Position numbers and translations under genes: made by a program. The notes beneath the pieces were generated by a model. The model was given only the letters and a program-made list of their open reading frames with translations. It was not told the DNA's origin and made no database searches. Shown in pieces: positions 1 to 60,615 of a DNA stretch of 64,000 nucleotides. This DNA comes from Lunularia cruciata (lineage: Eukaryota; Streptophyta; Marchantiopsida; Lunulariales; Lunulariaceae), in the NCBI GenBank assembly GCA_948567375.1, contig OX419755.1:3043001-3107000 (forward strand). The letters are read 5' to 3'. Within the stretch, counting starts at the first letter, position 1; each line of letters begins with the position of its first letter.

Positions 1-686
1 ACAAAGAGAATGAGCCCGTGATCCCACTCTAGCTGCATCTAATAATACAGCAGGTCCCATCCAAGAATGGACCTGATGTGTACTCACCACCACTCTAGTG
101 CAGAATCACCCATCAAAAGAACATTCTCCAAAAGGTAAGCTAGAGAAACAAACTGATGATCATGCAAATGTCGTAGTATTTGTAACATCTCCCAAAACAC
201 ACCAGAATGAGGATCCTGAAGACCCAATCCTCTACCAGCACGTGTATGTCCCTGACATGGCCATCCAAAAATCACCAAGTGAATAGGCCCATGTCTCTCT
301 AGGTCATGCATCCCTAGTAAGGAAATGTCTCCTGGTAGGGCCTTTTGGTAACCTCTGACTGCTGACATCAGTAATAAACCCTGATACCAATAGGCCAAGT
401 GTGCCACATGATATAGAGAGACTTGCCTAATAGTCTCATCTCTCTCTACATACAAGTACCTCTGTACTTGTATACCTGCCTGTAACACCGCAGCTAGTCC
501 GGTGCTGATCCTACCAAACAGCTCCAATAGACATATCCCCTCTACTGGATACTGCCAAGCAATGAGTGTGGTATCCAGAGGTGTCAAAGCAATCCCCTCT
601 GGAGGCTCATCCTCACACTCATCTCCTAATGGTACAAAGGCTCCACTCCAAGCCTGCTGCACCAACTGATTTGCATGCTGCTGCAA
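1..686 (-). pseudogene. Cytosine-5 DNA methyltransferase domain of D1 (partial)
   Basis: This encodes an AdoMet-dependent enzyme that would methylate cytosine C5 in DNA. The open frame 686-84 shows motif I (LLELFGRISTGLAAV, AdoMet binding) near residue 53, an acidic YVERDE segment, motif IV with the catalytic cysteine (GWPCQGHTRAG) near residue 146, and motif VI (LLENV) near residue 188. A one-base frameshift at about 85-105 follows. The other frame then continues with a motif VIII-like LLDAARVGSRAH before the window edge. The motif order is the canonical, non-permuted one. It lies directly downstream of the retropepsin of the same retroelement and upstream of where RT should be. The second Gly of motif I is Arg here but Gly in D2. 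Target specificity cannot be read. I am confident of the family, but not that it was ever active. Confidence 0.87.
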
Positions 687-1540
687 TGCCTCCTCTTAAC
701 TCCACAATGGAACATCCAAGGTGGATGGAACAATCCCACTTGTACTCCAAAGCCGAGTGATCTCCGTTGGTACTGGAGTATCCTCTGCATGGGCGTTCCC
801 CTCCACAAGTTTAGGGTCAAGTCACCAAGCCAAGTAACTGCACCACTGAAAGCTAAAAGTGATGTTGCCATGGTCCCGGACTGTAGTGAGCCAAGACTGC
901 CACTACTGAAGCGTACTGGTAGGCAACATACCCATCCCTCACCAGACTGCCAACCAGGTCTATAAGAGGCTATCTCCTCCTAATAGTCAATGCTGAAACC
1001 CATGGGATATAACACTGCTCCCCCAACTAGCACATCATATGACTCAACTATCATCGCTATAGCCTGAGCTCTCACCACCAAGCTATCATTCAGATGACCA
1101 GGCTGAACCTAGACAACAAGCTCTCCACGTGTGATGTACTGTATCGAACAACCACCTAGAGATGTCTGGATCTGAAATGGACACCTCTCCACATCGGTCT
1201 TCCGTAACTCCAAGCCGACCACTGCCGCCTTCTCCAACATAAGGGGCTGCGCACCAGAGTCTAACAAGACTCTTTGTGGTGTATAGACCTTCCTTGAAGG
1301 TCCCACCAAACGGAAAATCCCCCTCTGGTTATCCAATGGGACAATACCAGGTGTGAACCGTGCTCTTTCAAAGGCCGGTCTAGTTGGCAACTCCTCCAGT
1401 CGAGCCACTGCTGCTTGCCATAAACCACTGGTTGTTGAACGGATCCCATGCTCCTCAACCAAGTCAGCTCCACTACCAACCACCTCTGCTCTAGTAGTAG
1501 GAATTGCACCATCCCTACTCTCACACAACGTGGCAGCCAA
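687..1540 (-). pseudogene. Retropepsin (aspartic protease) region and linker of D1
   Basis: The frame 1540-1109 contains a retropepsin-like active-site segment, LLDSGAQPLML, with the D-S-G triad expected of gypsy proteases. The following stretch (about 1108-960, broken by a stop where Trp is expected) has a hydrophobic segment, SYDVLVGGAVLYPMGF, that fits the second half of the protease fold. Such an enzyme would cleave the Gag-Pol polyprotein. From about 960 to 687 the frame shifts, and I recognise nothing until the MTase begins. The equivalent region of D2 (57747-58327) is collinear and also damaged, so the assignment rests on two copies. Confidence 0.72.
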
Positions 1541-2362
1541 CTAGAATACTGGGGTTGGGTCAACTCCCAATGTAAACATATCACTGGCCAAAAACAAAGG
1601 ACGCCGCATAATCAGGTGAGCCGCCTCCAACATCATGCTAGACTCAGTCTGTGTAGTAGCAAGGGGCTGACTAGCAGGTAGTCCATCATGAACTCCATTA
1701 CCACCTACCACACTTGCACTGGGACGTCTAGGAACCATGGATGTTGTTTGCAATGCCTCAGATAGCATGAAAGACTGCGGAAGTCTAACTTGTCTCCCAA
1801 CCTCTCCTCTTTGTGGGTCCAACTCCACTGATGCTCCTCTAGGCTCTAGAGCACGTACTGCACTCCTAGTCATTGCTGCAGATGCATCCACCTGTGCTAC
1901 TCCGCACATGAAGTCCAAAGCATCTCTATCACAAGCATATGAGGTGGAAGCCTCAGCACCCGAATCTGATCTCCTCTAAGCAATAGCCATACTAGCCAAT
2001 CTCTGCTCCAACTGCTCAATCCGAGTAGCCATAGTTGTGTTAGAAGTAAGGGCAGGTACCGCACCCCTACGAGGTGTAGATCCTCTACCACCACCTCTAC
2101 CACCTCGTCCTCCATGAACTGGAGCTCCTCTACTACCAACCATAGCAGCCCTACCACTCCGTAACTCCGGGTGTAGGTCAAAACACCGGTCACTAGTGTG
2201 ACCAAATTTTGTGGTAGTGCTCACACTGCCTCTGTGCTGGTTGTGATGCAGCAAAGGTATCAAGTCCGCTGCCCTGAGTTTTTGTTTTGTTTGTTTTGTT
2301 CTAGTTTTGTTGAGCTCTCCTATGGTGAGGTCCACCACAAGTCCAACAAGCAACACCACCAC
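1541..2362 (-). pseudogene. Gag C-terminal/linker region of D1
   Basis: Two adjacent open stretches (2362-1976 and 1918-1541) are separated by a stop codon that is CAG in D2. They encode a Gly/Arg-rich segment (GGRGGRGGGRGS), a short Leu-heptad stretch (RIEQLEQRLASM) and a low-complexity linker leading to the protease. The zinc knuckle that begins this section (CWTCGGPHHRR) lacks its last Cys: a short A/C-rich insertion in D1 replaces it, whereas D2 keeps the final Cys. The role is inferred as nucleic-acid binding and spacer, from position between Gag and protease. Confidence 0.6.
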
Positions 2363-3563
2363 TCACTGGCTGCTGCTGACCCAAAAATGAAGGTAAGGAT
2401 CTAACTCCACTAGGCCCTCCACTCGCTCCATAGGATCTAGGCTGTCCACCCTGTCCTCAAAAACCAACTGGGCGTGGTGCACTCTACTGCACTCTAGAAG
2501 AAGTCACAACCGTGGATGAGGTCTCCCTACCAAATCTAGATGTCACCACCCTCTCCTCTACCATGTTGAGCTCAATACGCTCAGCCAAACCAAAGACCAC
2601 TGCCAAAGTAGGCCAAGTAGCCTGTAACAACGTAGCATCATAAACTCTACGTTGTTACTCCTTGTCTAGTATCCCATACCAAAACTGGACTGCCTTGGCC
2701 TCAGTAACTCCCTAAGTGAAACTGATCTGCCGCCTCATACGAGTGTATGCCTCGCGTAGGCTCTCTCTAGCCTTCCACTGGAACTCCTGCAAGCTCCTCA
2801 GCTTGTCAATCCGCACTCCCTAGTAGTTCTAACTCAAACATAGGAAGAACTCTATCATGGGGTTAAACCCCGGTACCACACCACCTCTTGCAGTGGTACC
2901 TACACTCGTAGTAGCACTATCTCCAGCTAGTGCACCTCCACTAGCTCCACCCACACTACTTGAGCTAGAACTCATAGGTACAGCCGATCTACTCCTGGCC
3001 ACCAAGCCTGAAGTGATAGAGATATAGTTTGGAGACCAACACTGTCTCCATAACTCGATCTCCTCCAAATGAGCTCTCCTGAACTCATGGTAGTCATCCA
3101 TTGGCGGACCCTCCTGATGCTGAAACAACCCTTTCCATGCCATGAAGGGTATGAACAAAGTCGGGTTCCGCATCTACTGCAGATCATACCAACTATCAAA
3201 CTCCTGGATGAAGTCATCCAACTCAATGGTACCCACTATACCAGAGTAACATCTAGGGCCTTTGGAGGCCCCATAAATCTTGTCTATGTCTCACAACAAC
3301 GGTGCGGACACACCAAGTGCACTCTCAATTGAATCAGCTCCTATGTCGAACTCCAACTCAGAGTCAATCTCCTCCATCACTAGGACCTGATATACAGACT
3401 GATACCGAGCACCACTCCAAGTAAACCCACTACGTACTACAAGGCTAACTCCTCTGGAATCTCCAAAGAACTCCGTCGTGACAAAGTAACCACAACAGCA
3501 AACCCCAACCACCAACTGCAACCGCAAGTGCCCCACCACGTGCAAACACCAACTAAGCACCAC
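2363..3563 (-). pseudogene. Gag (capsid-like) region of D1
   Basis: Several short frames together give a retrotransposon Gag-like protein. One segment (WKGLFQHQEGPPMDDYHEF) is followed by a Ser/Gly/Ala-rich spacer and then an EAYTRMRRQISFT...AVQFWYGIL segment, typical of gypsy Gag capsids in spacing and composition. It ends just before the zinc knuckle. Stops at about 2820, 2715 and 2655 are sense codons in D2 (59716-60117 and flanks). Gag would form the cytoplasmic particle that packages the element RNA. No intact start was fixed; the ATG at 3563 is a candidate. Confidence 0.6.
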
Positions 3564-4721
3564 CCACTAATGTAACTCTAACTGCGATAACTACACTAGG
3601 GGAAAGGGCAACCTGTAACCTGCCATCATAACACGCACTCTCACGATCTGCATGTCATCACTTCCTACCTCACCGGAGAGAAACAAAGGTAGTCTGACTG
3701 GTCATCACTCCAACCTCACCACCGAGAGCACACTAGAACACCAACGCTCAAAAGTCAAGGCACCTCACACAAACGTGGTGCACAAACAGGAAGTAGAGAA
3801 TAGAGGGGATCCAATCACAAGAAATCTAAACAAAAACCCTCCATCTCATAACACAACACGGGATTGACTTTGCCACCATTTGGCATTTGACATAAGAGAA
3901 GTTTGTATCTAAGTCCTAAGCTACCAGGATCACCAAGAATGGGATCAAACTGCCTCTCCTAGCCAAAGCTACATGTGTATAGATAGCAGTGGCACAATCA
4001 CTATGACAACATGTGAGGGTGGACCAGTTGGCTAGGGTACCAATCTAAGAACAAGAGATCTAAGGGTCAAACCCTGTTGCGCACAATCTAGCAGGAAAGG
4101 TAGATTTTGCCAACCAATGACCAAGATCTACTCTAAACTAGTTGGCCTTATGCCAGCAAGTTAGCTTGCTTGCCCTTCTAGGCCTTTGTAGCCTCTCATA
4201 GCCCACACTCCTATACCTTGAAGCCTCTAAACTTCTTCAAATCTACAAAAGTCCTCCAAACTAGCAAAACTCCTCCAAATCTGGCCAAAATTTGACGTAA
4301 ATCCCAACCAAAATCTGACATAAACCCTAAAGTTGGTCGTCCACCAAATCCCCTGCTAATTTTCCACTCGAGCCAAATTGACAACACGGGTTTTCTCCAA
4401 ATCACAAATTCATGAGAAGAGCTTCCCAACTCCACTTTCAATTTGACTTTTTGAGCCCAACTCGTATCAAATTGGTCATGCCTTCACCACCTGAGCTCAA
4501 AATCACAACCACTGCTCAAAATTTGCTCCTTCTTTGCTCAAAATTTGGCTAGCGCTTCTACACACCGGCCGTCTAACTGCCAAATTTGCATCAATTGAAC
4601 AAGCTTCTACACACTAGAGAAACACTGAACTTGAATCGAGCTACCAATGATCCACCGAGCTTGGAGATACCACCAACACTTAAAGTTCCTGCACTCGATT
4701 TCCCCTTGACTTCACTTCTCT
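3564..4721. other. D1 untranslated leader, no gene seen
   Basis: This stretch lies between the gag start and the partial LTR of D1. It has only short chance frames. Segments such as 3620-3780 are collinear with D2 (60440-60615), which supports its being element leader. I could not find a convincing primer-binding site next to the LTR edge at 4722. Confidence 0.5.
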
Positions 4722-5174
4722 GATGTAATCAGATTGCTTAACACTCTCAACTCAACTCAACTCAAATCAGTACTTGATCTATCACTCTATAAACTGCCAA
4801 CAATTGGGCACTAATTACAGTCAAGCCACACCCACTCAAGCATAGAGAATCCAAGTGACGCTTGCCGGCCTCTGTCCACCATAGCCAGGAACTCGAAGGC
4901 TCAACATCAGAGAAGTGAGCTCTCTAGAGCTCACTTCAAAACTATACCCCCTGGACTCAAGCTAGCTCTGAAACCCTAACGGTCCCGCTGACGGCACACT
5001 TGATGGTGCAAATGGTGCAAAGTGATGGTGGGCCTCACCGTGAAGTCAGTACCCCGAACACAAAATCTAACCGTCGAAAAGTAGTCGCTGAGAAACTACT
5101 GAAATAACTCTAACTACTATCACTGGAACTCCAGTGTCCGAGCATCTAGATGCGGCACTACAAATGGCGTGACA
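4722..5174 (-). repeat. Partial 5' LTR of D1
   Basis: The sequence from TGTAATCAGATT (4722) through ATGGCGTGACAT (to 5174) matches the D2 LTR at 49719-50175 along its whole length, with many substitutions. The part that should extend a further 90 bases to the LTR terminus is missing and replaced by element C1. There is no protein-coding frame. Confidence 0.75.
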
Positions 5175-13373: not shown

Positions 13374-14163
13374 TGTGACAACCCGCGAAATATCACTTTT
13401 GCGGTAATCGGGTAAGTAAAGTTCGTTCCCGCAGAGATACGAGTCAAAAATGTCCAAATACGAAGCAAAGTAACAATTTCAGTTCTTCTTGAGTTCTTCT
13501 TTAGTCTCTCAGGTAGAAACCACACCCAGAAGAGAGTAACAAACACTGACTCGTAGTCTTGTCACAAATTAACACTCCAAAATCACAACTCCATCAATTA
13601 TTTCCATACAGTCTTGATTTGTGATGATTCAGGCTCTCCCAAAAATGGCACTTCACTGCAAAACGACTTCGCCTCAGAATTGTGTTCTACCCCTCCACTG
13701 AAGGCACAACTTCCTCGATCGAAATTGCTTCACATCAACTTCGCACTGCACTCACAAATGCAGAATACTACCAACACTACAATTCCTCTCAGATCTGTCA
13801 AGGCATTGCTTTGATTGCACTTCACTCAGGATCAAATACACAAAATGAAGATCAAGGCTGTGGAATCCAACATCCAACAAGCCCTCTGACTTGCACTTCG
13901 AATTTCTCCAAATATTCACAAACACAATTACAAAGTTGATACTCGGAATCAAGCTTAAGCGACGAGCACTGCTTCACTTTGCTTTATCTATTCTCAGAAA
14001 TAATGAGCACTGAACAACAAGTTCCTACGAATGCCACTCTTAAATAGTGAAGCAATCGACAGTTCTAACAACTATACCGTTTCTACATCAACTGTTCTAA
14101 CCTGCAGATCCGAAATGACAATGCACCTCTTCATATCTGCCCCTTCAAATCTCAAATCGGTTA

Positions 14164-15912
14164 CTAATCCAATCCGATGTCTACTTCTTCCTCGGCTTTC
14201 AACCCTGAACCCGAAGTAATCTTACTTCCTACTATTCTGTCCTCGGGTTTCACAACTCTTACATCTTCTACCAGATCCAGCAATTCTCTTTCCTGATCTG
14301 AAATTGCACTAGCAGGTAATCTATCTAACTCTTCATCTTTCGACCCACTCTTCTCTACTGTCACTGAGGCCAACTCCAAAGACATTTGGATCCCAATGTT
14401 ATCTACGTCGGGTTTTGCTTTAACATACTGCCAAAGCTTTTCTAACTCTATTCTTACTAAGTCTAATCTAATCGCGATATTGTCTTCTACTTCTAAGATC
14501 TTCCTATCTACACGAGTTCTCAATTTAATCAACAAGGCATTCAGATCTGTATCTTTTGCTTGCCTTCGCCTTGTCTCCTGCACTAACAGCTTCAACTCGT
14601 GCAGACGCGTTTCTTCAATTCGAACGCTGGTCTCTGTACTTAGCATCGCGTTTACTCTGAGGACTATCTCCTGCAATGGCTCTAATCTTGTCTTCCTTTC
14701 TCATTCCCGATCTGCAAGCCATTCCTCTCTGTACATCGCCAACTCTTCTTCGAATTCGGCCTTCACCGCGTCCTTCTCTTTCTCCTTCTATGCAACCTTT
14801 TCTTCCTGATTACGAAGTAAGTCTCGTAATCTCTCTTCTTCTCCATATCTCGCAGCCAACTCTTGCTGCCAAAGTTGCTTCTTCTCCTCCATACTCTCCA
14901 TCACTCGATCGAGCTCTTGATCCTTTGATGCTACTCTTGCCATAGCATGGATGAGCTCTACTCTTGAATCAGCAAACTGCTGCTTCAAGATTTCAAATTC
15001 AGCTACTTGTCGCTCCCTTACGACATCACTCTTCCTCGCAAGATCCTCTTGATAGCTCAATTCTCTCCTCAGGTCTTTGATTACCTGACTTCTCTCCACT
15101 GCCTCCAATTGCAGTACTTCTCTCTCCTTCTCACCTCGGGTCATACTCTTCTTCAACTCTGAGTTTTCTTCTTCTAATCTTGATACCACCTGCAATACAG
15201 TCTTTACCTCTGGACAAGTCGACTGCATCTCCTTTTTCTTCTTCTCCAACTTCACCAACAGCGGGCATACTACCATCTGCAGGTAATCTACTCCATTAAT
15301 GATACCTTCGTCCCCTCTCGGAGTAGTCTCTCTTCTTTCTTCGTGTTCTTCCGATTCTCGCCTTCTTCTCTGGAGCCTTCGTATCGGAATTGATGCTTCA
15401 CTGCCCGAGCTTCCTTCTACTTCTTCTTTCACTCTACTCGGTCCCGCTTCCCCCTTCGCCTTACGTCTTGAGCAAATTCCTCGCTGTACTGTGATCTTCT
15501 TCTCCTTGAGCACCGGTACTTCGTCTTCCAGCGCTGCATTGTCTTCGGCTTTTACCTCGGCTTGAATTTCTTCTTTGTATTCTTCAGGCGTTAGTGCCGA
15601 GGTCATTTCTCCACCGACTTCACTATCACTGCTTGTATCTCCACTCTGCAGTGTCAGCTCAGGTTCCTCCTCACGTTCCGAGTCCTCCGTCTTGAGCTCG
15701 GCTTCACCTTCTGAGTCTTCATCTTCCGACTCAATCACCACCATTCCTCGCCTCGGGTTATTTTTCTGCATCTTCCGAGGTTTCTTGTTTTCTTTGGCGT
15801 CTACTTGCCGAGTTCTCTTCTTCGTCGGGGTACTTTCAACGACCTCCACGTTCTTCCCTGTGTTTGAGTAGTAATCGTCTGCGCTCCGGATTTGGAGAAT
15901 GTATTGCTGGTC
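14164..15912 (-). pseudogene. LTR-encoded coiled-coil protein of B, C-terminal part (left LTR)
   Basis: This is the distal portion of a large LTR-encoded protein. It contains a Glu/Lys-rich segment with Ser/Glu runs (SEDEDSEGEAE, about 15700), a basic RRLQRRRRESEEHEERR patch (about 15360), and then several hundred residues of Leu-heptad coiled coil (DYLQMVVCPLLVKLEKKK onward). It ends EEEVDIGLD at 14164. Two stops break it at about 14790 (Leu TTA/CTG-type codon in the other LTR) and 14700 (CGA to TGA). The N-terminal part continues on the far side of element A (23740-24568). Function is unknown; the charge pattern and coiled coil suggest a structural or nucleic-acid-associated role, which is inference only. 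Confidence 0.75.
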
Positions 15913-31127: not shown

Positions 31128-31134
31128 AAAATCA

Positions 31135-36518: not shown

Positions 36519-37258
36519 TGTAATACCAAGAGTTAGCTATATGATCTAGATGTGAAATTTGGTCTGGTAACATCTAGAATGATGTTATACATGATGGTCA
36601 AAATAGATTAGATAGAAGTATCACCAAAAGAGTACTTATACAAATAGGGCAGAAACTAAAATAGACTTGAGAACCTTAGAACCAATAGCTAGACATATGA
36701 TTTAAAGGTGAGAATTGGTTTGGTAACATCTCGAAGGATGTTACACATCATGGACTAAATAGATCAGAAAGAGGTATCACCAAAAGGGGGACTTCTACTA
36801 ATAGAGTAGGAACCAAAATATGCCTAAAATCTTTGAAGGCAATTTTGGAGGCCTAAACGGATGAATTAGGCCTCAAAAATGTGCAGGCCCCCCCCCCTTA
36901 CAGAGGAAAGGCTGGCCTTCCCTCCCCCCTGATTTGTCTTATCGAGAGCTTTCCAATGGTACCTTACTCACGTGATTTTGAGATTCTATAGGAAGATTCC
37001 CTAAAAGATTCCCTCTAGTCAAAGCTTGTTTGACCAACCAGATAGGACCTAGACTAGACATGTCACCCATCCAAGTAAGTAATCCAAGGGTGGAGCTTGC
37101 TAACATGTGACCTATATGTGTCCCTAATCCTATGGTGGAGCTTCCTTGGAAGAGATACTCTTTGCCTATATAATAAAGAGAAGGTGCTCCTTTGGGGCAT
37201 CAAATGTTTGAGTGTGCAATCTGTGTTTTCTCTCTTCTCTTGTCCTCGGAGTATTACA
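36519..37258 (+). repeat. 5' LTR of E1
   Basis: 740 bp, TGTAATACCAAG...GGAGTATTACA. A TATA box (TATATAATA) sits at 37167-37175, and the U5-like end is followed by the primer site. A solo copy of the same LTR in opposite orientation lies at 54122-56781. Confidence 0.9.
37167..37175 (+). promoter_or_regulatory. TATA box in E1 LTR
   Basis: TATATAATA lies about 90 bases before the LTR end. Its position and sequence suit the element promoter, with transcription starting about 30 bases downstream. Confidence 0.6.
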
Positions 37259-48927: not shown

Positions 48928-49628
48928 CCCACATTTTTTAACAAGTTTTAAAAAAGAAGTGTATTGTTGAAGCCAAATTGCAGCTTAATAATCAAGAAAA
49001 GAGGAGAATCATATGTTCAGCATAGACCCAAAGGAGTTGACTTTGGGTCAGAGAAAGAAGTACTTGGACCGCACTTATGGAAGGGTAGACTTGAAGTAAG
49101 GCAACTTCATATTGGGAGGCTCAACTTGATCCAAAGAAGTTGTAACAACTTTTCTTTAGGTCACGCCAATCAAGAATGTATAATCAAGGAAATGGTTGAG
49201 TTGTGAGAAGGATAATTTACAAGTGACAAGAAATAAACACATAGAATTTATGAGGGTCAATTGCAAATCAATTGAAGAATGAAAGCATCTCAAAGCACTA
49301 TAAAAGTAACACTTCATTGAGGGAAATCTGAAATTTCAAGAAGATATCTTGTTCCTCTTAGTAGTTGTCCTAAAGGAATGCAAGTCACAAAGCCGGATGA
49401 GAGTGTCATTTTGTAAAGGCCTGAGGGAGTTAGAATCATATGTCCCAGGAGAGGGAATAGCGTTCCAATGACCTAGAGTCCATGAGCACATGATGGCAAA
49501 GAAGAGTGGGTGGAAGAGCTCTTCACTTGTAGTGAGGAGTCTAGCAATTTGGAGGTTAGATATAGGGGTACGGATTGAAGTCTTGAGTAGACTTTAGATT
49601 ACATTTTTGGTATAAAATTGGAACTTTG
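48928..49628 (+). repeat. 5' part of a diverged B-like LTR
   Basis: It starts TGTGATACCCACATTTTTT, close to the B-type LTR terminus at 54282 (TGTGGTACTCACATTTTTC), and stays collinear with that copy for about 150 bases. At 49540-49628 the plus frame reads LAIWRLDIGVRIEVLSRL-ITFLV-NWN, matching the N-terminal domain of the B LTR protein. It is cut at 49628 by D-LTR sequence. Confidence 0.65.
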
Positions 49629-49718
49629 TTGTGCATATATACATTGCTACACAAAATAGATTGATGTCAACATCATACACTATAGAAGCACAACTCACAC
49701 ATAAACTCTAAAGGGCCA
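49629..49718 (-). repeat. Extra D-LTR end fragment
   Basis: These 90 bases repeat, with several changes, the last 90 bases of the D2 LTR (50171-50264), including the terminal GCCACA. They abut the opposite end of that LTR directly. Confidence 0.7.
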
Positions 49719-50264
49719 CAATAATCAGATTGTTTACAACTCAAATCAATTGAACTCCGATCAGTACTTGATCTGATCTTCAACAACTTGCCAACAATAG
49801 TGCACTAATTACAGTCAAGCCACACCCATTCTAGCTAAGAGACTCTTGGTAAAGCTTGCCGGCTTTTTGTCCACTCTAGCCAAGAACTCAAAGGCTCAAC
49901 ATCAAAGAAGTGAGCCCTTTGGAGCTGCACTTCCAGGGTATACTCTTGATTTTGACCTAGGTCTTATCTCAACGGTCCCACTGATGGCACACCCGATGGT
50001 GTGGATAGTGCAAGTGATGTTGGGCCCCGCCATGAAGTCAGTAACCTAAACACAAAATTTGACCGTCGGAAATAGTTTATGAGTAACTGCCAAAATGCCT
50101 CTAACTACTATCAACTGGAACTCCAATGTCCAAGCAATCTAGATGCAACACTACAAATGGCGTGACATTTGTCATGCATATATACATCACTACACAACAT
50201 ACATCATTGTCAACATACATACACTATAGAAGCACAACTCACACTTAAACTCTAAAGTGCCACA
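49719..50264 (-). repeat. 3' LTR of D2
   Basis: About 546 bp. The end next to the polypurine tract is TGTGGCAC on the minus strand; the far end matches TGTAATCAGATT of D1 but has decayed to ATAATCAGATT. It matches D1 4722-5174. Confidence 0.75.
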
Positions 50265-50402: not shown

Positions 50403-50700
50403 TCAAATACATCTAGGACATAACCATTATCCTTGAGGAACCACTGTGAGGAGAGGAGTCATACATGCCATATGCCATCCTCTCAAACAACTATCACACA
50501 CTAACATAGTAGTAGCTCCACCAAAAGAGCCACATAACATACACCTCAAGCCTGCACGTACAAGTGCCAAGCTTGGGTCCATAGTACCATCAATATTTGG
50601 GAGGTGGCATGGCGCACAATTGTGCACATGATCCTTCTAACACAAGGACTCCAGATAGTAAAACCTCACGCACTCTCAAGGTAGTGTGGCCTGTTGAAAC
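50403..50700 (-). pseudogene. PHD finger at the C-terminus of D2 integrase
   Basis: The minus frame from about 50627 reads NCAPCHLPN, then CMLCGS, LVCDSC, GWHMAC and, past one stop, WLCPRC. This gives a complete C4-H-C3 set with PHD spacing (C-x2-C, C-x2-C, H-x2-C, C-x2-C) and the PHD hallmark Trp two residues before the last Cys pair. PHD fingers commonly bind histone H3 tails, so here it could steer the integration complex to chromatin, the role a chromodomain plays in chromoviruses (inference). It lies after the integrase core and before the polypurine tract. A frameshift at about 50640 and the TAA before WLCPRC break this copy. A bare zinc knuckle is excluded by the eight ligands and their spacing. 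Confidence 0.85.
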
Positions 50701-51710
50701 ATCACGTGTTGTCGGTGTTGTCTGCTATAGATATACATAGTCACCTAGATGAAATCAACTGATCAAAGGCTTATAACCTCCTCCTTGAAGAGTAGCATAA
50801 CATAAGGTATCCCTATGCTGAGCAATTGCCAAGTTCTCAGAGGCCATCGGCATCACTCTCCAAAAGATCTCTGCCCGTTGAGGACCTACGCTCACCCATA
50901 CATCAGGATCATCCAAGTCCAAGACTACAGTAGCATCTTGATGAATGGCTACAAATAAATCTAGATCTTGTCCATAGAGTAGAAAGTAAGGAGAGAAGGA
51001 TGCTAAGGAGGCTTGCCGGCTGAACTGATAGCCCATGGCCGACCAAGGTAATTGGAAATCCCAATCTCCCAAGTGGCCTCTCTGCAAACCATACTTTCAC
51101 AATCCTCCCTTCACCGTCTGAACCACTCTCTTTGCTAAGCTATCTGCCTTAGGGTGATCTCGAGATGTATTACAATGATCAATCAAAGCCTTGTCACACA
51201 AGACCTGAAATTCCCCTTAGAACTCTATACCCAGATCAGTCAAAACCTCAGTTGGTACACCAAAATGACTAAGAACTCAATCCAAGAACAAGTAAGTTGT
51301 CCCTTCACTAGACTTGTCTGGAAGTGCCACCAACTCAATCCACTTGGAGAAGTGCTCCACCATCACCAAAGCATACCAATGATGTCTCACAATCAACAGT
51401 AAAGGTCCTGCAAATCCAAACTTCAGTGCTAACCCAATCCTATGATAGGTAATGGGTGTAACTGTGGTGTAAGAGCATTGATGCTCTCACTTGGTCACAA
51501 ACCACACATTTGGCAACAAATTGTTGTACCTTGGTCTGCATATTGTACCACCAATAGTGATTGTGGAGTAAGCTATATGTATGCTTTACTCCAAAATGTC
51601 CTAGCTCCTCATGAGCATGACAGACCAATTGTAGTCTCCGAGATGGAAATGGTACTACTCTCACTCTACCATCCTCCCATACACGCAAAAGGTGTATGCC
51701 CTCCAATCTG
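50701..51710 (-). pseudogene. Integrase of D2
   Basis: The zinc-binding domain is at 51706-51440, with H-x4-H (HAHEELGHFG) and C-x2-C (CVVCDQ). The core follows from about 51430: ALVMVEHFSKW, DLGIEF for the second Asp block, and DSLAKRVVQTVK, where the catalytic Glu has become Lys. The C-terminal part 51087-50755 has PWSAMGYQFSRQASLASFSPYFLLYG. Integrase would join element DNA to the genome. The lost Glu and several stops rule out activity here. Confidence 0.85.
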
Positions 51711-53470
51711 AACCATCTAGCTCATTGAAGAACACAATCTCTCTCCTTGGTCCCAACTATGCCACCCAAAGCACCAGTGCAAAGATAGTCCATCACTAAG
51801 ATGTCACCATGAATGTCTTGCTAAACTATACCAATATCTTCACTCTTTGGATCTATGACCTCAATAGCTCCTCCTATATGCGCTGAGAGAAATACCACCA
51901 AAGCCTAAAAAAATATACACAAAAAGGCCAATGCATGCCACCTAGGCACCATCTCCTCGTCTATCTCACCATGCCAACGTGCTCCGGTCTGATCCTGCTG
52001 GTTGGAACATGGGTTTCTACTCAACCCATCTGCATCACGATTCACCACTCTAGCTTTGTGAACAACTATGAAATCATAATCCTATAATATCAGAGCCCAT
52101 TGTGCAAGCTTCCCTGAAAGCTTGTTGGACTCCATCACCACTTCAATGGCTGATGATCAATGATAAGAGTGAAGGGATTACCAAATAGGTAACATCAGAA
52201 ATGTGCCACTACCCAAACTGCTACCAAGCACTCTCCCTCATATGAATTATACTTTGCCTCCGCTGAATTGTTGGAGCAAATAGCATAGGCAACCACAAAA
52301 TCCTTCCCCTCATCATCATGTTGGATGAGCACTGCTCCAAGCCCCAACATACTCCAATCAATATGAACTTGAAATGGTCGTCCTTTGATTGGTCTCCTTA
52401 AAATAGGAGAAGATGTCAAGCTCTCCTTGAGCACTACAAATGCTCTCTCTTGCTCATGTTCCCAACACCGCTCTTGTGTAAGCTTGGTCAGCTTCATCAA
52501 GGCCTTGGCAATGGTACTAAATCCTCTCACATAACGGCAATAGAAGTGCACCAACCCAAGGAATGCTTGCACTCTACTCACCTTTGTAGGCCAAGGAATA
52601 TGTGCAATAGCCTCCACCTTGGTCTATTGAACACCAAGTCCTCTGGGGTAAATAGTGTGACCCAAATACTCAACCTGCTCATGGAAGAACCTACACTTTT
52701 CAGGATGTAATTTGAGTCCATGAGATGTCAACCTCTCAAACACCTCCAACAATTATCTCTCATGCTCCTCCATAGTAGTGCTATAGACTAAAATGTCATT
52801 AATAGAGCATAGAGTAAAATCCAATCCAACTAAGATCCTATCCATGACCCTCTAGAATTCAGCAGGAGCATTCTTTAACCCAAATGGTAAGAACTTCCAT
52901 TGATATAACACATCCTTGTCGTGAGGATCAATAGCCCAAAATGATATCTTGGACTTATCCTCCTCCTTGATTGGCAATTAATGATATCCCGCTCAAAGAT
53001 CCAAAGCACTGAAGACGTTTGCATGCCCAATCGCACCAAAAATCTCCTCTAGTATAGGCATGACATACTAATCAGCCGTAGTCTATTGGTTGATAGGATG
53101 GTAATCTCCACACATCCGCCTATCTGTGTAATTGCCATGCATATCCTTCTTGGCTAGCATCACTGTAGTTGATGCAGACTCTCCATGTGAGATCTCCACC
53201 AAACCAGCCTCAAAAAGGTCTCTACTTGAGCTCTAAATCAATGTCCTCTCCATGTCATTATAGCAATAAGGATGTTAGAGAACTGGTGTATCGCTAGTCA
53301 GCTGAATCTGTATGCTAGGTCCCTTCAAAGCACCAAAAGCCTTCATATTGAAGGCAAAATAACTCATGTAGCTCCTCAAGAACCTCCAAACTCTCCATCT
53401 TTCCTCTCTTGTAAGCTTGGGTCCAAGATCTGGCTCCCAAGTATCCTCCATAACTGTCAAAGGAGTGGAA
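51711..53470 (-). pseudogene. RT and RNase H of D2
   Basis: The open pieces 53460-53275 (pre-RT), 52617-52195 (tether/RNase H) and others between them give a gypsy RT in order. Blocks seen are LPFGLKNAPAEF, INDILVYSTTMEEHE (first catalytic Asp changed to Asn), LHPEKCRFF, VEYLGHTIYPRGL, VQAFLGLVHFYCRYVRGFS and an RNase H start, QVHIDWSMLGLGAVLIQHD. About ten stops interrupt it. Similar blocks place D in the gypsy superfamily, nearer to E than to A and B. Confidence 0.86.
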
Positions 53471-53810
53471 GATGTATTGACTGGCTGCTATACTAGGCCC
53501 TTTGGAGCAGTATTGTCATGCTCCTGACCACTAGAGGTCCTAACTTATGTGTGAAAAACTCACTTCACTCTAGCTGCAAGCTCCACATGTCCTCTAGCTG
53601 CATCCCAAGTGGACCAAGGGTGTAATCCAAGTAGCTCACGCTCACCTAGATGGACTCCAAGTAGACCACTCTCCCTAGTAGCTATTGGCTTTGTCCCAAG
53701 AATACCATATCCACTCGGTCCATCGCTCCCAACATTTGCCTGAATTATCTCGATAGGCACAGGGATCACAAGTGTCCGAGTGGTGATGCCTATCAAGCGC
53801 ATCCTATGCT
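53471..53810 (-). pseudogene. Linker between MTase and RT of D2
   Basis: An 80-codon frame (53802-53560) and its flanks join the MTase to RT. The sequence (ITTRTLVIPVPIEIIQANVG) has no family I recognise. It follows the MTase C-terminal helix after one stop, so the MTase was probably part of the same polyprotein. Confidence 0.45.
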
Positions 53811-54121
53811 ACTCCGCCAAACCAAGGCTCACAATCCAGGTCAAACAGTTCAGGTACATAGCCAAACCTAACACCTTATGCTTAGATGCCTCTGATATTG
53901 CTGGAATAGCGGTAATATTAGTGCAAAAACTCATTGCCCGCTCTCTTGGATCGGCATTGGGCTCCACTAACTACTATAATTGTGAGTCCCAAACAAGTCT
54001 AGGTCCTCCCTCTTGAAAAGCATGAGAGCCTAGGAAACTCATAAGTGTGGGAAAAGTGGCTCTAGGCTATCCAACTAGGTTCACCACTGCCATAAGTGAC
54101 CTATCAGCCACTACCACCGTC
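53811..54121 (-). pseudogene. MTase of D2, C-terminal part (motifs IX-X)
   Basis: Directly beyond the E insertion the frame resumes TVVVADRSLMAVVN, then SFLGSHAF, LVWDSQL, EPNADPRERAMSF (motif IX-like, with the R-E-R pattern) and HKVLGLAMYLNCLTW (motif X-like). It ends at a stop at about 53811. These blocks complete the cytosine-5 methyltransferase fold that starts at 57480. Stops at about 54020 and 53990 add to the break caused by the E LTR. Confidence 0.78.
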
Positions 54122-54281
54122 TGTAATACTCCGAGGACAAGAGAAGAGAGAAAACACGGATTGCACACTCAAACATTTGATGCCCCAAAGGAGCACCTTC
54201 TCTTTATTATATAGGCAAAGAGGATCTCCTCCAAGGAAGCTACACCATAGGATTAGGCACACAGATAGGTGACATGTCAAT

Positions 54282-56196
54282 TGTGGTACTCACATTTTTC
54301 ATTTTGGACGAGTTTTGAAGAAGAAGTGCCTTGTTGAAACCAAATTGAAACCAAATGGAGAAGAAATGAGTGCAAACTTGTGTTTTGATAAAGCTTGAGG
54401 AAGTAGACTTTGTGTTAGAGGAAGAAGAACTTGGACTGGATCAAACCCAAAGAAGTTTACTTTGTTTCAGAGGGGAAAAAAAACTCAGATCAAACGTTGA
54501 AGGAGAGCAAACCCAAAGGAGAAATAGAAATTGCAGGTCAGGATTCTTGCGGGGGCTATATCTCAATGCACACAAGTCCAAATCAAGCGTGTTATATTTC
54601 ATTAGAAGCGCCTCGTTTAGGGCTTTCCATTGCCACCAAAATCGCAAAGTTTGGAGGTCTGTACAAGAAGTTACAAGCATTTGAAGTTTCTAGAGTAGAT
54701 GTACTTCGGGTCAAAGTATCTTCGGGTCAATGTGACTTCCGACTTCGTACTTCGGACTTCGGGTTTACATGACTTCGGGTCTAAAGACTTTGCCTCAAGA
54801 CTAAGATGACCGACTAAATCTGAGGATGTCGGACCTCGGAGTGCAGTGAAGGTGACTTTTGGAGTTTTGCCAAAGGGATCAGAGGAAGTTAGAGTAGGGA
54901 AAGAAGATAGTTAGGATACCCATGACTTCAATTTCAGTTTTGATTGAAGATGGAACATGAATTAAAGGAGAAGTAGTAGTTGTGAATAAAACCAAAGTGT
55001 AGGATTAGATAGTAAGTGTCTTTGGGTCAGTAACATGAGTGATTAGTGGAAAGTGGGTTACAAATTGAAGGTGTAGATAGTGTATTCATTTTTTCAATTA
55101 CAATTCTTGACGATGACACAGTAGAACTAGTAAAGGAATTGATAGTAGTTAGACCCAAAGTAAGAGAGATAGGAGTGCAAGTGTCTTTAGATTTGACATT
55201 TGACACCTTAGAGAAGAGTGGGTCGAGAGATAGAGATTTAGAATGCTTAATTATGATAGTAATTGCAGATCAGGAAGGAGAAGTGTTAGAATTAGTGGAG
55301 GAATTGGGAGTTGTGAAACTTGAGGACAGAATATTAGGAAGTAAAGTTACTTCGGGTTTGGGTTTGAATAAAGAAGAAGAAGTAGACATCGGATCGGAGT
55401 AGAAACCGATTTGAGATTTGAATAGACAGATATGAAGGGTTGCATTGTCATTTCAGATCTGCAAGTTTTTAGAGTCATTAGGAAGAGGTGTATTAGGAAG
55501 ATTACTATCGATTTATTCATTACCTAAGAGTGGCATTTGCAGTCAAATGTTGTTCAATGCTCATAATTTCTGAGAATAGATAAAGCAAAGTGATGTGAAG
55601 TAGTGCTCGTCGCTTGAGCTTGATTTCGAGTATCAACCTTGTGTCTATGTTTGTGAGTGTTTGAAGAAATTTGAAGTGCAAGTCAGAGTGCTTGTTGGAT
55701 GTTGGATTCCACAGCCTTGATCTTCATTCTGTGTGTTTGATCTTGAGTGAAGTGCAATCGAAGCAATGCCTTGACAGATCTGAGAGGAGTTGTAGTGTTG
55801 GTAGTATTCTGCATTTGTGAGTGTAGTGCAAAGTTGATGTGAAGCAATTTTGATTGAGGAAGTTGTGCCTTCAGTGGAGGGGTGGAACACAATTCTGAGG
55901 CAAAATTGTTTTGCAGTGAAGTGCCGTTTTTGGGAGAGCCTGAATCATCACAATCAAGATTGTTTGGAAAGATTTGATGGAGTTGTGATTAGGGAGTGTT
56001 AATTCGTGACAAGGTTGCGAATTAGTGCTTGTTACTCTCTTCTAGGTGTGGTTTCTACCTGAGAGACTAAAGACACAACCAAGAACTACCTTGTTACTAT
56101 TTGACTTCGTATTTGACCAATTCTGACTCGTATCTCTACGGGAAAGAACTTTACTTACCAGATTACCGCAAAAGTGATATTTGCCGGGTTGTCACA
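54282..56196 (+). mobile_element. B-type LTR remnant inside the E solo LTR
   Basis: It starts TGTGGTACTCACA and ends CGGGTTGTCACA, the reverse complement of the B LTR ends. At 1915 bp it is about half the B LTR length because of internal deletion. Flanks TCAAT/TCAGC look like a decayed 5-bp duplication; the undisturbed E LTR has TTAGC. The right part (55560-56196) matches B 13374-13990 closely. Confidence 0.85.
55046..55402 (+). pseudogene. C-terminal piece of the LTR-encoded protein in the B-type remnant
   Basis: 118 codons aligning with the last 120 residues of the B LTR frame: TLEKSGSRDRDLE (B: TVEKSGSKDEELD), then ELVEELGVVKLEDRILGSKVTSG and the terminal EEEVDIGSE. The frame is open although the copy is otherwise shortened. 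The N-terminal coiled-coil part is deleted. Confidence 0.75.
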
Positions 56197-56781
56197 TCAG
56201 CAAGCTCCACCCTTGGATTACTTACTCGGATGGGTGACATGTCTGGTCTAGGTCCTATCTGGTTGGTCAAACAAGTTTTGACCGGAGGGAATCTTTTAGG
56301 GAATCTTCTTGTAGGAATCTTAGAATCACATGAGTAAGGTACCGTTGGAAAGCTCTCGACAAGACAAAGCAAGGGGGAGGAAAGGCTAGCCTTTCCTCTA
56401 TTGGGGGGAGGATTTTGTACATTTTTTAGGCCTAATTCATCTGTTTAGGCCTCCGAAATTGCCTTCAAAGATTTCCGGTATATTTCAATTCCTACTCTAT
56501 AAGTAGAAGTCCCCTTTTGGTGATAGCTCTTTCTGATCTTTTTAGTCCATCATGTGTAACATCCTTCTAGATGTTACCAAACCAATTCTCACCTTTATAT
56601 CATATGTCTAGCTATTGGTTCTAAGGTTCTCAAGTCTATTTTGGTTTCTGCCCTATTAGTAGAAGTACTCTTTTGGTGATACTTCTATCTAATCTATTTT
56701 GACCATCATGTATAACATCATTCTAGATGTTACCAAACCAAATTTCACATCTAGATCATATGGCTAGCTCTTGGTATTACA

Positions 56782-57530
56782 CCGTTTGAGACTAACGCCC
56801 CACATCCAAGATGTCATCAACAAGGATGTGGTCTAGTTGCTGAATCCCATCATATGCACGTTGTAGCCTCTCTTGGTAAGAGTTTTGTCCACCAAAGACA
56901 AAGACAATGAGCCCGTGATCCTTTGGCTGCATCTAACAATACAGCAGGTCCCATTCAAGAATGTGTGTGAATCACCCATCAAAGGAACATTCTCCAAAAG
57001 GTAAGTTGGAGAAATAGATTGATGAACTTGGAGATGTCGTAGTATCCGTAACATCTCCCAAAACACACTAGAATGAGGATCCTAAAGACCCAAACCTTGA
57101 CCAGCACATGGCCATCTAGAAAACACCAAGTGAATAGGCCCATGTCTCTCTAGATCATGCGCCCCCAGTAAGGAAATGTCTATTGGTAGGGCCTTCTGGT
57201 AACCTTTGACTATTGATATCAATAATAACTCCGAATACCAATAGGCCAAGTGTGCCACATGATGTAGAGAGACTCGCCTAGCAGTCTCATCTCTCTCCAC
57301 ATACAAGTACCTTTGTACTCTTATACCCGCCTATATGACCGCAGCCAGTCCGGTGCTCATCCCACCAAACAACTCCAATAGACATACTCCCTTTATTGGA
57401 TACTGCCAAGCAATGAGTGTGGTATCTAGAGGTGTCAAGGTAGTCGACTCTGGAAGCTCATCCTTACACTCATCTCCTAGTGGTACAAAGGCTCCACTCC
57501 AAGCCTATTGCACCAACCGATCTACATGTT
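56782..57530 (-). pseudogene. MTase of D2, N-terminal part (motifs I-VIII)
   Basis: Minus strand from about 57530. Motif I reads CLLELFGGMSTGLAAV with the canonical double Gly. It is followed by YMYVERDETARRV, DLERHGPIHLV, and motif IV reduced to RWPCAGQGLGL because 15 bases present in D1 are deleted, removing the residues after the catalytic Cys. YLLENVPLMGDS (motif VI) and, in another frame, LLDAAKGSRAH and WWTKLLP (motif VIII region) follow. The domain then reads YDGIQQLDHILVDDILDVGR up to the E LTR. The enzyme would methylate cytosines in DNA; this copy is certainly dead. Confidence 0.85.
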
Positions 57531-57639: not shown

Positions 57640-58330
57640 TAACTTATCAAGCCAAGTAACTACACCATTGAAAGCTAAAACTGATGTTGCCATGGTCCCA
57701 AACTGTAGTGAGCCAAGACTGCCACTATTGAAGCGTACTGGTAGGCAACATACTCATCCCTCACCAGACTGCCAACCTGGTCTATAGGAGGCTATCTCCT
57801 CCCAATAGTCAATATTGAAACCCATGGGATATAACACTACTCTCCCAACTAGCACATTGTATGACTCAACTATTGTCGCAACAGCTTGAGCTCTCACCAC
57901 CAAGCTATCAGTCGGATGACCAAGCTGAACCTGGACAACAAGCTCCACATGTGTGATATAATGTACCAAACCACCACTTAGAGATGTCTGGATCTGAAAT
58001 GGACACCTCTCCACATTGGTCTTATGTAACTCCAAACCGACTACTATAGCCTTCTCCAACATAAGGGCTACGCACCAGAGTCTAACAAGACTCTTGTGGT
58101 GTATAAACCTTCCCTGAAGGTCCCACCAAGCGGAAAATCCCCCTTTGGTTATTCAATAGGACAACACCAGGTGTGAACCATGCTCTCTCAAAGGCTGGTC
58201 TAGTTGGCAACTCCTCCAATCTAGCCCTTGTTGCTTGCCATAAACCACCGGTCGCTAAACAAATCCCATGCTCCTCAACCAAGTTAGCTCCACTACCAAC
58301 CACCTCTGCTCTAGTAGTAGAAACCACATC
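57640..58330 (-). pseudogene. Retropepsin region of D2
   Basis: It is collinear with D1 687-1540. Frame 58327-58082 gives the upstream part and 58062-57754 the part from LMLEKAIVVGLELHKT. The active-site LDSGA lies at the frame break (about 58075). SYNVLVGRVVLYPMGF appears at about 57850. Confidence 0.7.
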
Positions 58331-59150
58331 ATCCCTACTCTAATAAAGCATGGTAGCCAATTGGAACACTGGTGCTAGATCAACTTCCAATATAAACATG
58401 TCACTGGCTGAAAACAAAGGGCAACGCATAATCAATTGAGCCGCCCCCAACCTCATGCTATACTCAATTTGTGTCGTAGCAGGTGGTTGACTAGTAAGTA
58501 GTCCATCATGCACTCCATCACCACCAACCACACCTGCACTGGGGCATCTAGGAGCCATGGATGTTGTCTACAATGCCTCTGATAGCATGAAAGACTAGGG
58601 AAGTTTGACCTATGTCCCAACCCCTCCTCTCTGTGGGTCCAACTCCATTGATGCTTCTCCAGGCTTTGGAGCACGTACTGCACTCTTTGTCACTACTGTA
58701 GATGCATCCACCTGAGTTGCTCTGCACATGAAGTCCAAAGCATCTCTATCACTAACATATGAGGTGGAAGCCTCAACACCCAAATCTGATCTCCTCTGAG
58801 CAATGGCCATACTAGCCAATCTCTGCTCCAACTGCTCAATCCGAGTAGCCATAGTTGTATCAGAAGTAAGGGCAGGTATTGCACCTCTACTAAGTGTAGA
58901 TCCTCTACCACCACCTCTACCACCGCATCCTCCATGAACTGGAGCTCCTCTACTACCTACCATAGCAGCCTTACCACTTTGTAACTCTGGGTGTAAGTCA
59001 AAGCATCGGTCACTACTGTGACCAAATTTGTGACAATGCTCACACTACCTCTATGCTGGTTGTGATGCACCAAATGTATTTGGTCCACTGCCTTGAGTAC
59101 ACTCTCTCCTATGGTGAGGTCCACCACAAGTCTAACACGCAACACTACCA
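58331..59150 (-). pseudogene. Gag C-terminal/linker and zinc knuckle of D2
   Basis: It is collinear with D1 1541-2362. The zinc knuckle at 59095-59140 reads C-stop-T-C-G-G-P-H-H-R-R-E-C, with all ligands present but a TGG-to-TAG stop inside. The Gly/Arg-rich stretch and RIEQLEQRLASMA coiled segment follow (58963-58610), then the linker to the protease. Confidence 0.65.
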
Positions 59151-60615
59151 CTCACTGGTTGCTGTTGACCCAAAAATGAAGGTAAGGGTCTAACTACAGT
59201 AGGCCTTCCACTCGCTTCATAGGATCTGGGTTGTCCATCTTGTCCTCAAAAACCAATTGTGTGTGGTGCACTATGCTGCACTCTAGAAGAAGTCACAATT
59301 GTGGATGAGGTCTCCTTACTAAATCCAGATGTCACCACCCTCTCCTCCACCATGTTGAGCTCAATACGGTCAGCCAAACCAAAGACCACTGCCAAAGTAG
59401 GTGAAGTAGCATGTAACAATGTAGCATCATAAACTCTACATTGCAACTCCTTGTCCAATATTCCATTCCAAAACTAGACTGCTTGGGCCTCAATAACTCC
59501 TTGAGTGAAACTGATCAACCACCTCATGCAAGTGTATGCCTTGCATAAGCTCTCTCCAACCTTCCACTAGAACTCATGCAAGCTCCTCAGCTTGTCAGTC
59601 CATACTCCTTGGTAGTTCTACCTCAAACACTAGAAGAGCTCCACCATGGGGTTAAACTCCAATACCACACCACCTCCTACAATAGTACCTCCACTTGTGG
59701 TAACATTATCTCCATCTAGTGCACCTCCACTAGCTCCACCAACACTACTTGAGCTAGAACTCGTGGGTACAGCCAATCTACTCTTGGCAACTGAGCATGA
59801 AGTGATAAAGATATAGTTTGGAGATCAATACTGTCTCCATAACTCAATCTCCTCCAAATGAGCTCTCCTGAACTCATGGTAGTCATCCATTGGCGGACCC
59901 TCCAAGTGTTGAAACAACCCCTTCCATGCCATGAAGGGCATAAACAAAGGTGGGTTCTGCATCTGCTACAAATCACACCAACTATCAAACTCTTCGATGA
60001 AGTCATCCAACTCAATGGTACCCACTGTACCAAAGTAACACCTAGGGCCTTTGGAGGCCTCATAAATCTTATCCATGTCCTACAACAACGGTGCAGACAT
60101 GCCAAGTACACCCTCAACTAAATCAACTCCTATGTCAAACTCAAACTCAGAGTCAATCTCCTCCCTCACTAAGACCTAAGATATAGGTTGATATTGAGCA
60201 CCACTCCCAAGTAAACTCACTACATACTGCAGGGCTAACTCCTTTGGAATCCCCAAAGAACTCCATTATGACAAAGTAACTGCAATTGCAACCACAAACT
60301 GGAACCACCAAATGCAACCACAAACTACAACCGCAAGTACCCCACCAAGTGCCAACACCAACCAAGCATCACAAGTGCCAAAACTAACAAAACACTATCC
60401 ACTAATGTGACTCTATCTAAGACAAATACACTAGAGGCAAGGATGACTTATAACCTGCCATCACAACACGCATTCTCATAGTCTGTAGGTCATCACTTCC
60501 TATCTCATTGGAGAGAAACAAAGATAGTCTGACTGGTCATCACTCTAACCTCACTACCGAGAGCACACTAGAGCACCAACGCTCAAAATTCAAGGTTCCT
60601 CACACAAACATGGTG
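59151..60615 (-). pseudogene. Gag region of D2
   Basis: Frames corresponding to D1 gag: the 60117-59716 area (WHGRGCFNTWRVRQWMTTMSS in a shifted frame) and 59458-59246 (ELQCRVYDATLLHATSPTLAVVFGLADRIELNMVEERV). Shifts and stops are frequent. The region and its leader end at 60615, where similarity to D1 stops. Confidence 0.6.

Follow-up and report, generated by a model that had tools for sequence, protein, structure and literature searches.

A predicted DNMT3-type DNA methyltransferase inside gypsy-type retrotransposons of Lunularia cruciata

Two decayed copies at the locus and the gene order of the element

The stretch analysed here (the window, 64,000 nucleotides of the Lunularia cruciata genome, C1:3043001-3107000) holds two decayed copies, D1 and D2, of a gypsy-type retrotransposon family (family D) that carries a cytosine-5 DNA methyltransferase (MTase) domain. 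An earlier note, made from the letters of the window alone, had placed this domain between the retropepsin and the reverse transcriptase (RT) and held it to belong to the element rather than to be a chance neighbour. The position was confirmed in both copies, and the domain proved integral to the element, being present in D1, in D2 and in all 10 genomic loci chosen by RT similarity.

Both copies lie on the minus strand and both are broken. D1, about 9.8 kb long, begins at window position 5174 and extends beyond the first letter of the window to C1:3038343, with the target duplication TAGA at its flanks. Nucleotide (blastn) mapping divides it into the 5' terminal repeat A1 (4726..5174, where the 4-bp duplication TAGA matches the far end beyond the window), an untranslated leader (3533..4725), gag (2066..3494), the end of gag to the protease (866..2066, with the retropepsin DSGA motif inside open reading frame (ORF) 1109-1540), a linker upstream of the MTase (605..864) and the N-terminal part of the DNMT3-type MTase with motifs I-VI (1..605, cut by the window edge and also placed by PF00145 and its motifs). 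The minus-strand ORF 84-695 scored above the Pfam cut-off for C5-MTases (PF00145), as the start of a domain that continues past the window edge. D2 spans 60615 to 49627 and, by the same mapping, retains part of the leader (60294..60615, beyond which a search for a match to A1 gave none), gag (58887..60280), the end of gag to the protease (57688..58885) and an MTase split, as blastn and motif places show, into an N-terminal part with motifs I-VIII (56780..57454) and a C-terminal part (53800..54123), which bears the motifs IX and X that the earlier note had anticipated. The interruption is a later 2.66-kb insertion foreign to the element (54124..56779). There follow in the sequence an in-frame TAG (53488..53490) and then CAGCCA, which make up the UAG-CAR-YYA readthrough motif, the RT (52490..53484), RNase H with the N-terminal part of the integrase (51566..52490, found also by Pfam), the integrase core with a C-terminal PHD-finger stretch (50403..51560, named from the domains of a homologous ORF) and the terminal repeats B1 (50170..50248), A2 (49722..50167) and B2 (49627..49704).

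We searched the whole genome (565.8 Mb, 74 contigs) for further copies. The initial listing of 10,665 candidates is not a copy count; 150 were scored, and every one matches the MTase query, with identities of 87-100% (the query itself included), so that the MTase-bearing element is more widespread than the window alone revealed. Its genes are arranged as gag - protease - MTase - UAG - RT - RNase H - integrase - PHD. The first frame of the long-frame copy L032/L033, 1428 aa long, comprises gag with zinc knuckles, retropepsin and MTase, and after the in-frame TAG come RT, RNase H, a DDE integrase and a PHD finger, the order RT - RNase H - DDE integrase being that of Ty3/gypsy. Pfam placed the MTase, RT (RVT_1, E = 8.4e-32), RNase H (RT_RNaseH, 1.5e-36), integrase (rve, 3e-13) and PHD finger (PF00628, 6.5e-11) above cut-off and gag (PF03732, E = 0.056) below it; the protease of this copy is identified solely from its DSGA motif and its position, Pfam detecting it in relatives such as P0131. 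L032/L033 has an additional stop within the integrase zinc-binding domain, and the listing for other copies includes a second frame of 1037 aa (31 of 150 rows, 19 of them stop-free in the matched part). The PHD finger closes the integrase C-terminus (L033 ORF 2029-3216; window 50403-51560 in D2), in the place where a chromodomain was looked for and is not there. Chromoviruses are gypsy elements whose integrase bears a chromodomain; family D resembles them in that its integrase ends in a module that reads chromatin but differs in that the module is a PHD finger. Because its best PDB matches are a varied group (CHD4, KMT2D/C, PHF12, DPF3 and KDM5B), the histone target of this finger cannot be named.

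Identity and selection of the methyltransferase

The MTase carries motifs I-X in canonical order (AdoMet motif I, the catalytic PC, ENV, VIII, IX and X), and the solved structures closest to it, by profile as by fold, are those of DNMT3; no chain named DNMT1 or CMT occurs among the 58 structure matches listed. The claim of a C5-MTase in family D is therefore borne out by sequence (PF00145 and motifs) and by fold, and profile and fold agree in pointing to a DNMT3-type cytosine-5 DNA methyltransferase. In phylogenetic analysis the 37 relatives sampled group in a single clade (100/100), which leaves out the host DNMT3, the host DRMs and DNMT3A and adjoins the DNMT3/DRM rows (86/79), where the DNMT3s sampled are one animal sequence (partial) and one from the host. 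The host DNMT3, at C7:31989816, contains an intron and has the canonical motif order; the genome also encodes two DRMs (C6:13140243 and C1:48270087) with rearranged motif order. These host enzymes are of the same class as that of the element, and DNMT3 shares its motif order, but the intron of DNMT3, the rearrangement of the DRMs and the separate clade set them apart.

An MTase frame without stop or gap was found in 9 of 30 loci chosen by MTase similarity, 0 of 3 chosen by DNMT3A similarity and 4 of 10 chosen by RT similarity. All 43 loci, which represent 42 copies because L087 and L010 are one and the same, retain the catalytic Cys, and the motif GWPCQG is exact in 39. A protein search found 235 relatives; among the 120 listed, 85 could be read at the catalytic position, and 82 of these have Cys (query excluded). 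Within the family, where post-insertion decay is mixed into every ratio of nonsynonymous to synonymous change (dN/dS) and every variant count, dN/dS for the MTase was 0.349 over the 9 unbroken copies and 0.383 over the 13 unbroken loci; elsewhere in the element it was 0.512 (RT), 0.567 (gag-protease) and 0.953 (the linker after the MTase). Comparison with the distant relative L073 showed 53% of MTase residues kept though synonymous sites are saturated (pS 0.746).

Other figures temper this picture. The MTase dN/dS rises to 0.434 over all 10 RT-chosen loci, so that constraint is only moderate, and was 0.425 for D1 against the 9 unbroken copies; variants shared by at least 4 copies comprise 16 nonsynonymous changes, 15 synonymous changes and 2 stops, and singletons 79, 43 and 9, respectively. 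The motif conservation and dN/dS below 1 to which the earlier note had looked are nevertheless both found, with motifs I-X in canonical order and a range of 0.349-0.434. As judged from sequence comparison, the MTase is a long-standing, normal and selected part of one gypsy-type retrotransposon lineage, and we regard its DNMT3-type identity and its standing as a selected part of the element, taken jointly, as close to certain.

Stop codon, relatives and terminal repeats

Between MTase and RT a TAG is found in 26 of 30 loci, 24 of which read TAGCARYYA; two loci are gapped at this site, and in L028, where the alignment is poor, the codon is TCA. The context UAG-CAR-YYA, described as a readthrough consensus (PMC3542737), is common to two very different members of the lineage, and we infer a high output of MTase alongside Gag and a low output of Pol. 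Several observations speak against so simple a scheme: D1 carries CAA instead of TAG, the RNA 3' of the stop folds no better than shuffled sequences (z 0.63), the protein relatives P0142 and P0149 have MTase and RT in a single frame with no stop, and in Marchantia P0145 the MTase is predicted to continue into RT. Since these three join MTase and RT, Gag-side expression of the MTase is not universal.

Named relatives come from the bryophytes Calypogeia fissa, Sphagnum troendelagicum, S. tenellum, Marchantia polymorpha and Riccia sorocarpa, most matches being unnamed records; the alga Closterium gave a weak, partial match, and no Klebsormidium nitens name appears among the matches listed. The distant relative L073 has the same gene order, with identities of 53% (MTase), 63% (RT-RNase H), 70% (integrase-PHD) and 34% (gag-protease), a TAG CAA TCA stop, a comparable G-rich tract and, at L073:7052, the junction CACGACA-GC-TGTCACG; its ends share a 48-bp repeat, as expected from a circle or a collapsed repeat. 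L073 (CADCWO010000201.1, a Synechococcales metagenome-assembled genome) and P0022 (Obscuribacterales) are retroelement sequences under bacterial labels, which are probably contamination in public metagenome-assembled genomes. A viral or bacterial origin of the MTase was considered and rejected: all 11 IMG/VR loci, and all but one of the 7 genome loci, match the domain only partly, at 27-53% identity, and we read these 17, four of which were placed in trees, as ordinary C5-MTases, the seventh genome locus being L073 itself, a whole relative of the element.

The MTase occupies two positions among these relatives. In the lineage of the window it lies between protease and RT, whereas P0151, P0153 and P0155 have it between RNase H and integrase; in P0116 RNase H precedes it, and in P0108, P0154 and P0156 the integrase follows it. 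The seven alternative-position rows form one group in one tree (support 100), and in a second tree six of the seven fall within a group of eight (100/99) together with two of unknown layout. Either the domain moved within the lineage, therefore, or it was captured twice. PHD fingers occur with both layouts. Marchantia Mp_7g09570 (P0111, named a PHD-type protein) was considered as a domesticated PHD gene and rejected; its pieces (protease end, MTase fragments, integrase and PHD) read as a broken copy of the element.

Integrated copies have the order A (449 bp) - leader - coding - G-rich tract - B (107 bp) - GC - A - B. The 3' end is B-A-B in 15 of 17 copies; L044/L045 stops after the first B, and for one copy the sequence retrieved did not show the end. 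At the 5' end, read in three copies (c6a, c10 and D1), A is followed by the leader, without B. The element thus lacks the identical, complete long terminal repeat (LTR) that canonical elements have at both ends, and because its 3' end is B-A-B and its 5' end A without B we call it gypsy-type rather than a canonical LTR element. Split direct repeats of the form A-coding-B-A-B follow the order of DIRS elements. DIRS elements have a tyrosine recombinase and are not known to make target duplications; in family D no recombinase family was detected in the three ORFs scanned, an rve integrase being present instead, and a 4-bp target duplication flanks all 10 of the copies in which both ends could be seen.

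The A/B joint is identical in 7 of 8 copies read and the eighth has one extra A, a pattern that end joining of LTR tips would give. The junction CACGACA-GC-TGTCACG occurs both in the family's own copy (terminal region L033:3384-4047) and in the very distant L073. If the G-rich tract acted as polypurine tract and the leader followed U5, the LTR of the reverse-transcription product would be B-GC-A, and a two-LTR circle cut open at one B-GC-A junction, between its CA and TG, would yield precisely the order seen. A linear product by itself does not give that order, and a circle model is therefore proposed; together the repeats, the DDE integrase and the 4-bp duplications suggest integration from a circular intermediate. 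The A-body-B structure of L044/L045 was rejected as proof of integration from a one-LTR circle, since recombination between B1 and B2 leaves the same structure. No convincing tRNA primer site was seen after A1 on inspection by eye. A small perfect hairpin, TCTGAT-TAC-ATCAGA, has the boundary of 5' repeat and leader (L032:3530-3570) in its loop, and copy c6b contains an extra 134-bp B-A junction piece (L035:3981-4114) about 0.65 kb downstream of A1.

Proposed role of the enzyme and related systems

Cytosine methylation is the chief silencing mark of plant transposons, and with this enzyme the element may be able to tag its own DNA with that mark. The best explanation of the whole, which we hold to be somewhat probable, is a selected DNMT3-type MTase that is made with Gag and methylates the element's cDNA; on cDNA methylation taken by itself our judgement is evenly balanced. 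Most ribosomes would halt at the UAG, so that Gag-protease-MTase would exceed Gag-Pol; the MTase would be packaged with Gag and would methylate the double-stranded cDNA before integration, the new copy would reach the chromosome pre-marked like silent host DNA, and the integrase PHD finger may aid the choice of chromatin. A more elaborate scenario, tentative and rather doubtful, is an ancient streptophyte DDE-integrase lineage with a single DNMT3 capture, expression in proportion to Gag through UAG-CAR-YYA, cDNA methylation and an integration that starts not from the ends of linear cDNA but from a two-LTR circle opened at the conserved internal site CACGACA-GC-TGTCACG. If the circle reading is true, the methyl mark could protect or license the circular intermediate.

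C-to-T changes in 26 copies affect 5.0% of CG, 4.0% of CHG and 0.8% of CHH sites, from which integrated copies appear to be methylated, whichever enzyme is responsible. A footprint of a special mark left by the element was not found: young D pairs have ratios of 5.0 (CG/CHH) and 4.2 (CHG/CHH), and eight other repeat pairs of the window span 1.6-16.7 and 1.4-6.5, respectively, bracketing the D values. As other window repeats share the direction of the bias, there is no sign of escape from host silencing. The same skew, read as germ-line methylation of integrated copies, would suit an MTase that seeds silencing of its own copies, which the host then maintains, with less transposition and less damage to the host, and slowed retrotransposition is among the possibilities named in PMC5890265. 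We consider this self-limitation unlikely, since the similar bias of the other repeats means that the host, which owns a DNMT3 and two DRMs, may act alone. Quite unlikely is action in trans, whether on host DNA and chromatin or as an anti-silencing rival of the host DNMT3: the PHD finger might read histones where the MTase writes on DNA, but the two lie on opposite sides of the stop and are joined only in the readthrough product, and a mere decoy could do without catalysis, whereas every one of the 43 loci retains the catalytic Cys.

Methylation of RNA, for example of the genomic RNA with which the enzyme would be packaged in the particle, is very unlikely; the RNA enzyme DNMT2 shares the fold (profile match 1.1e-7), but DNMT3 DNA enzymes are the best matches by sequence and fold. 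The intron-containing, canonical-order DNMT3 of the present host offers a source for recent capture, which is highly improbable because the 37 relatives form a clade apart from it and from the host DRMs and DNMT3A, and which is refuted within this DNMT3 sample. That the domain is a chance neighbour or a non-functional passenger seems next to negligible: D1 and D2 are both broken, but the MTase has the same place in the copies examined, with its motifs kept and under long-term constraint, and intact relatives with conserved catalytic motifs exist. An element that keeps a DNMT3-type enzyme across great divergence offers a natural test of why a parasite writes a silencing mark, a question that the unbroken frames found here and the relatives in the model plant Marchantia make experimentally accessible, and a terminal-repeat layout combined with a DDE integrase raises the question of how such elements integrate.

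The earlier note had pointed to cytosine MTases encoded by retrotransposons of charophytes and dinoflagellates, correctly so, as PMC5890265 describes DNMT3 in gypsy elements of Klebsormidium nitens as well as dinoflagellate retrotransposon DNMTs. By its description, the element of this charophyte, KnitGypsy-Dnmt3 (de Mendoza et al. 2018, PMC5890265), is like family D in its gypsy-type domains, its intronless DNMT3 without motif rearrangement and its purifying selection. It differs in that its DNMT lies in the Pol polyprotein ORF, whereas in family D the MTase shares with Gag and protease the stretch before an in-frame UAG, and in a Ka/Ks reported as under 0.2, against 0.35-0.43 for the D-family MTase. 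An A-coding-B-A-B layout is also reported for K. nitens, which the authors equate with DIRS (Figure 4 legend). SymbioDIRS-Dnmt3 of dinoflagellates, reported there to methylate CG, shares with family D a retrotransposon DNMT3 and A-coding-B-A-B repeats, but it is described with a tyrosine recombinase, whereas a DDE integrase and 4-bp target duplications characterize family D. The main text of PMC5890265 does not mention PHD, Marchantia or moss. For streptophytes and dinoflagellates, a 2025 survey (PMC12344493) mentions 'LTR Copia and DIRS' elements with DNMT3, and no such element is named in the covered portions of a land-plant transposon review (PMC9033089), a Marchantia review (PMC9516144) and a land-plant chromatin paper (PMC10952607). 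We found no description of MTase-bearing elements of bryophytes in the open literature searched, most subscription journals being outside this coverage. Retrotransposon DNMT3 as such is already known (Klebsormidium gypsy-Dnmt3, 2018); new with respect to the literature covered are the conserved UAG-CAR-YYA stop with a Gag-side MTase, the PHD-ended integrase, the two MTase positions, and the 4-bp duplications and DDE integrase despite A-coding-B-A-B repeats.

The A-repeat pairs diverge by 0.082 in D1, 0.007 in c6a, 0.009 in c10 and 0.016 in c6b, values not converted to years because methylated sites mutate fast. The insertion in the MTase of D2 (54124-56779) bears TGTAATAC...GTATTACA ends and is 92-96% similar to window 36519-37258; its middle resembles 13374-14357 and 31134-32118 at 85%, and the whole looks like a solo LTR with another repeat inside.
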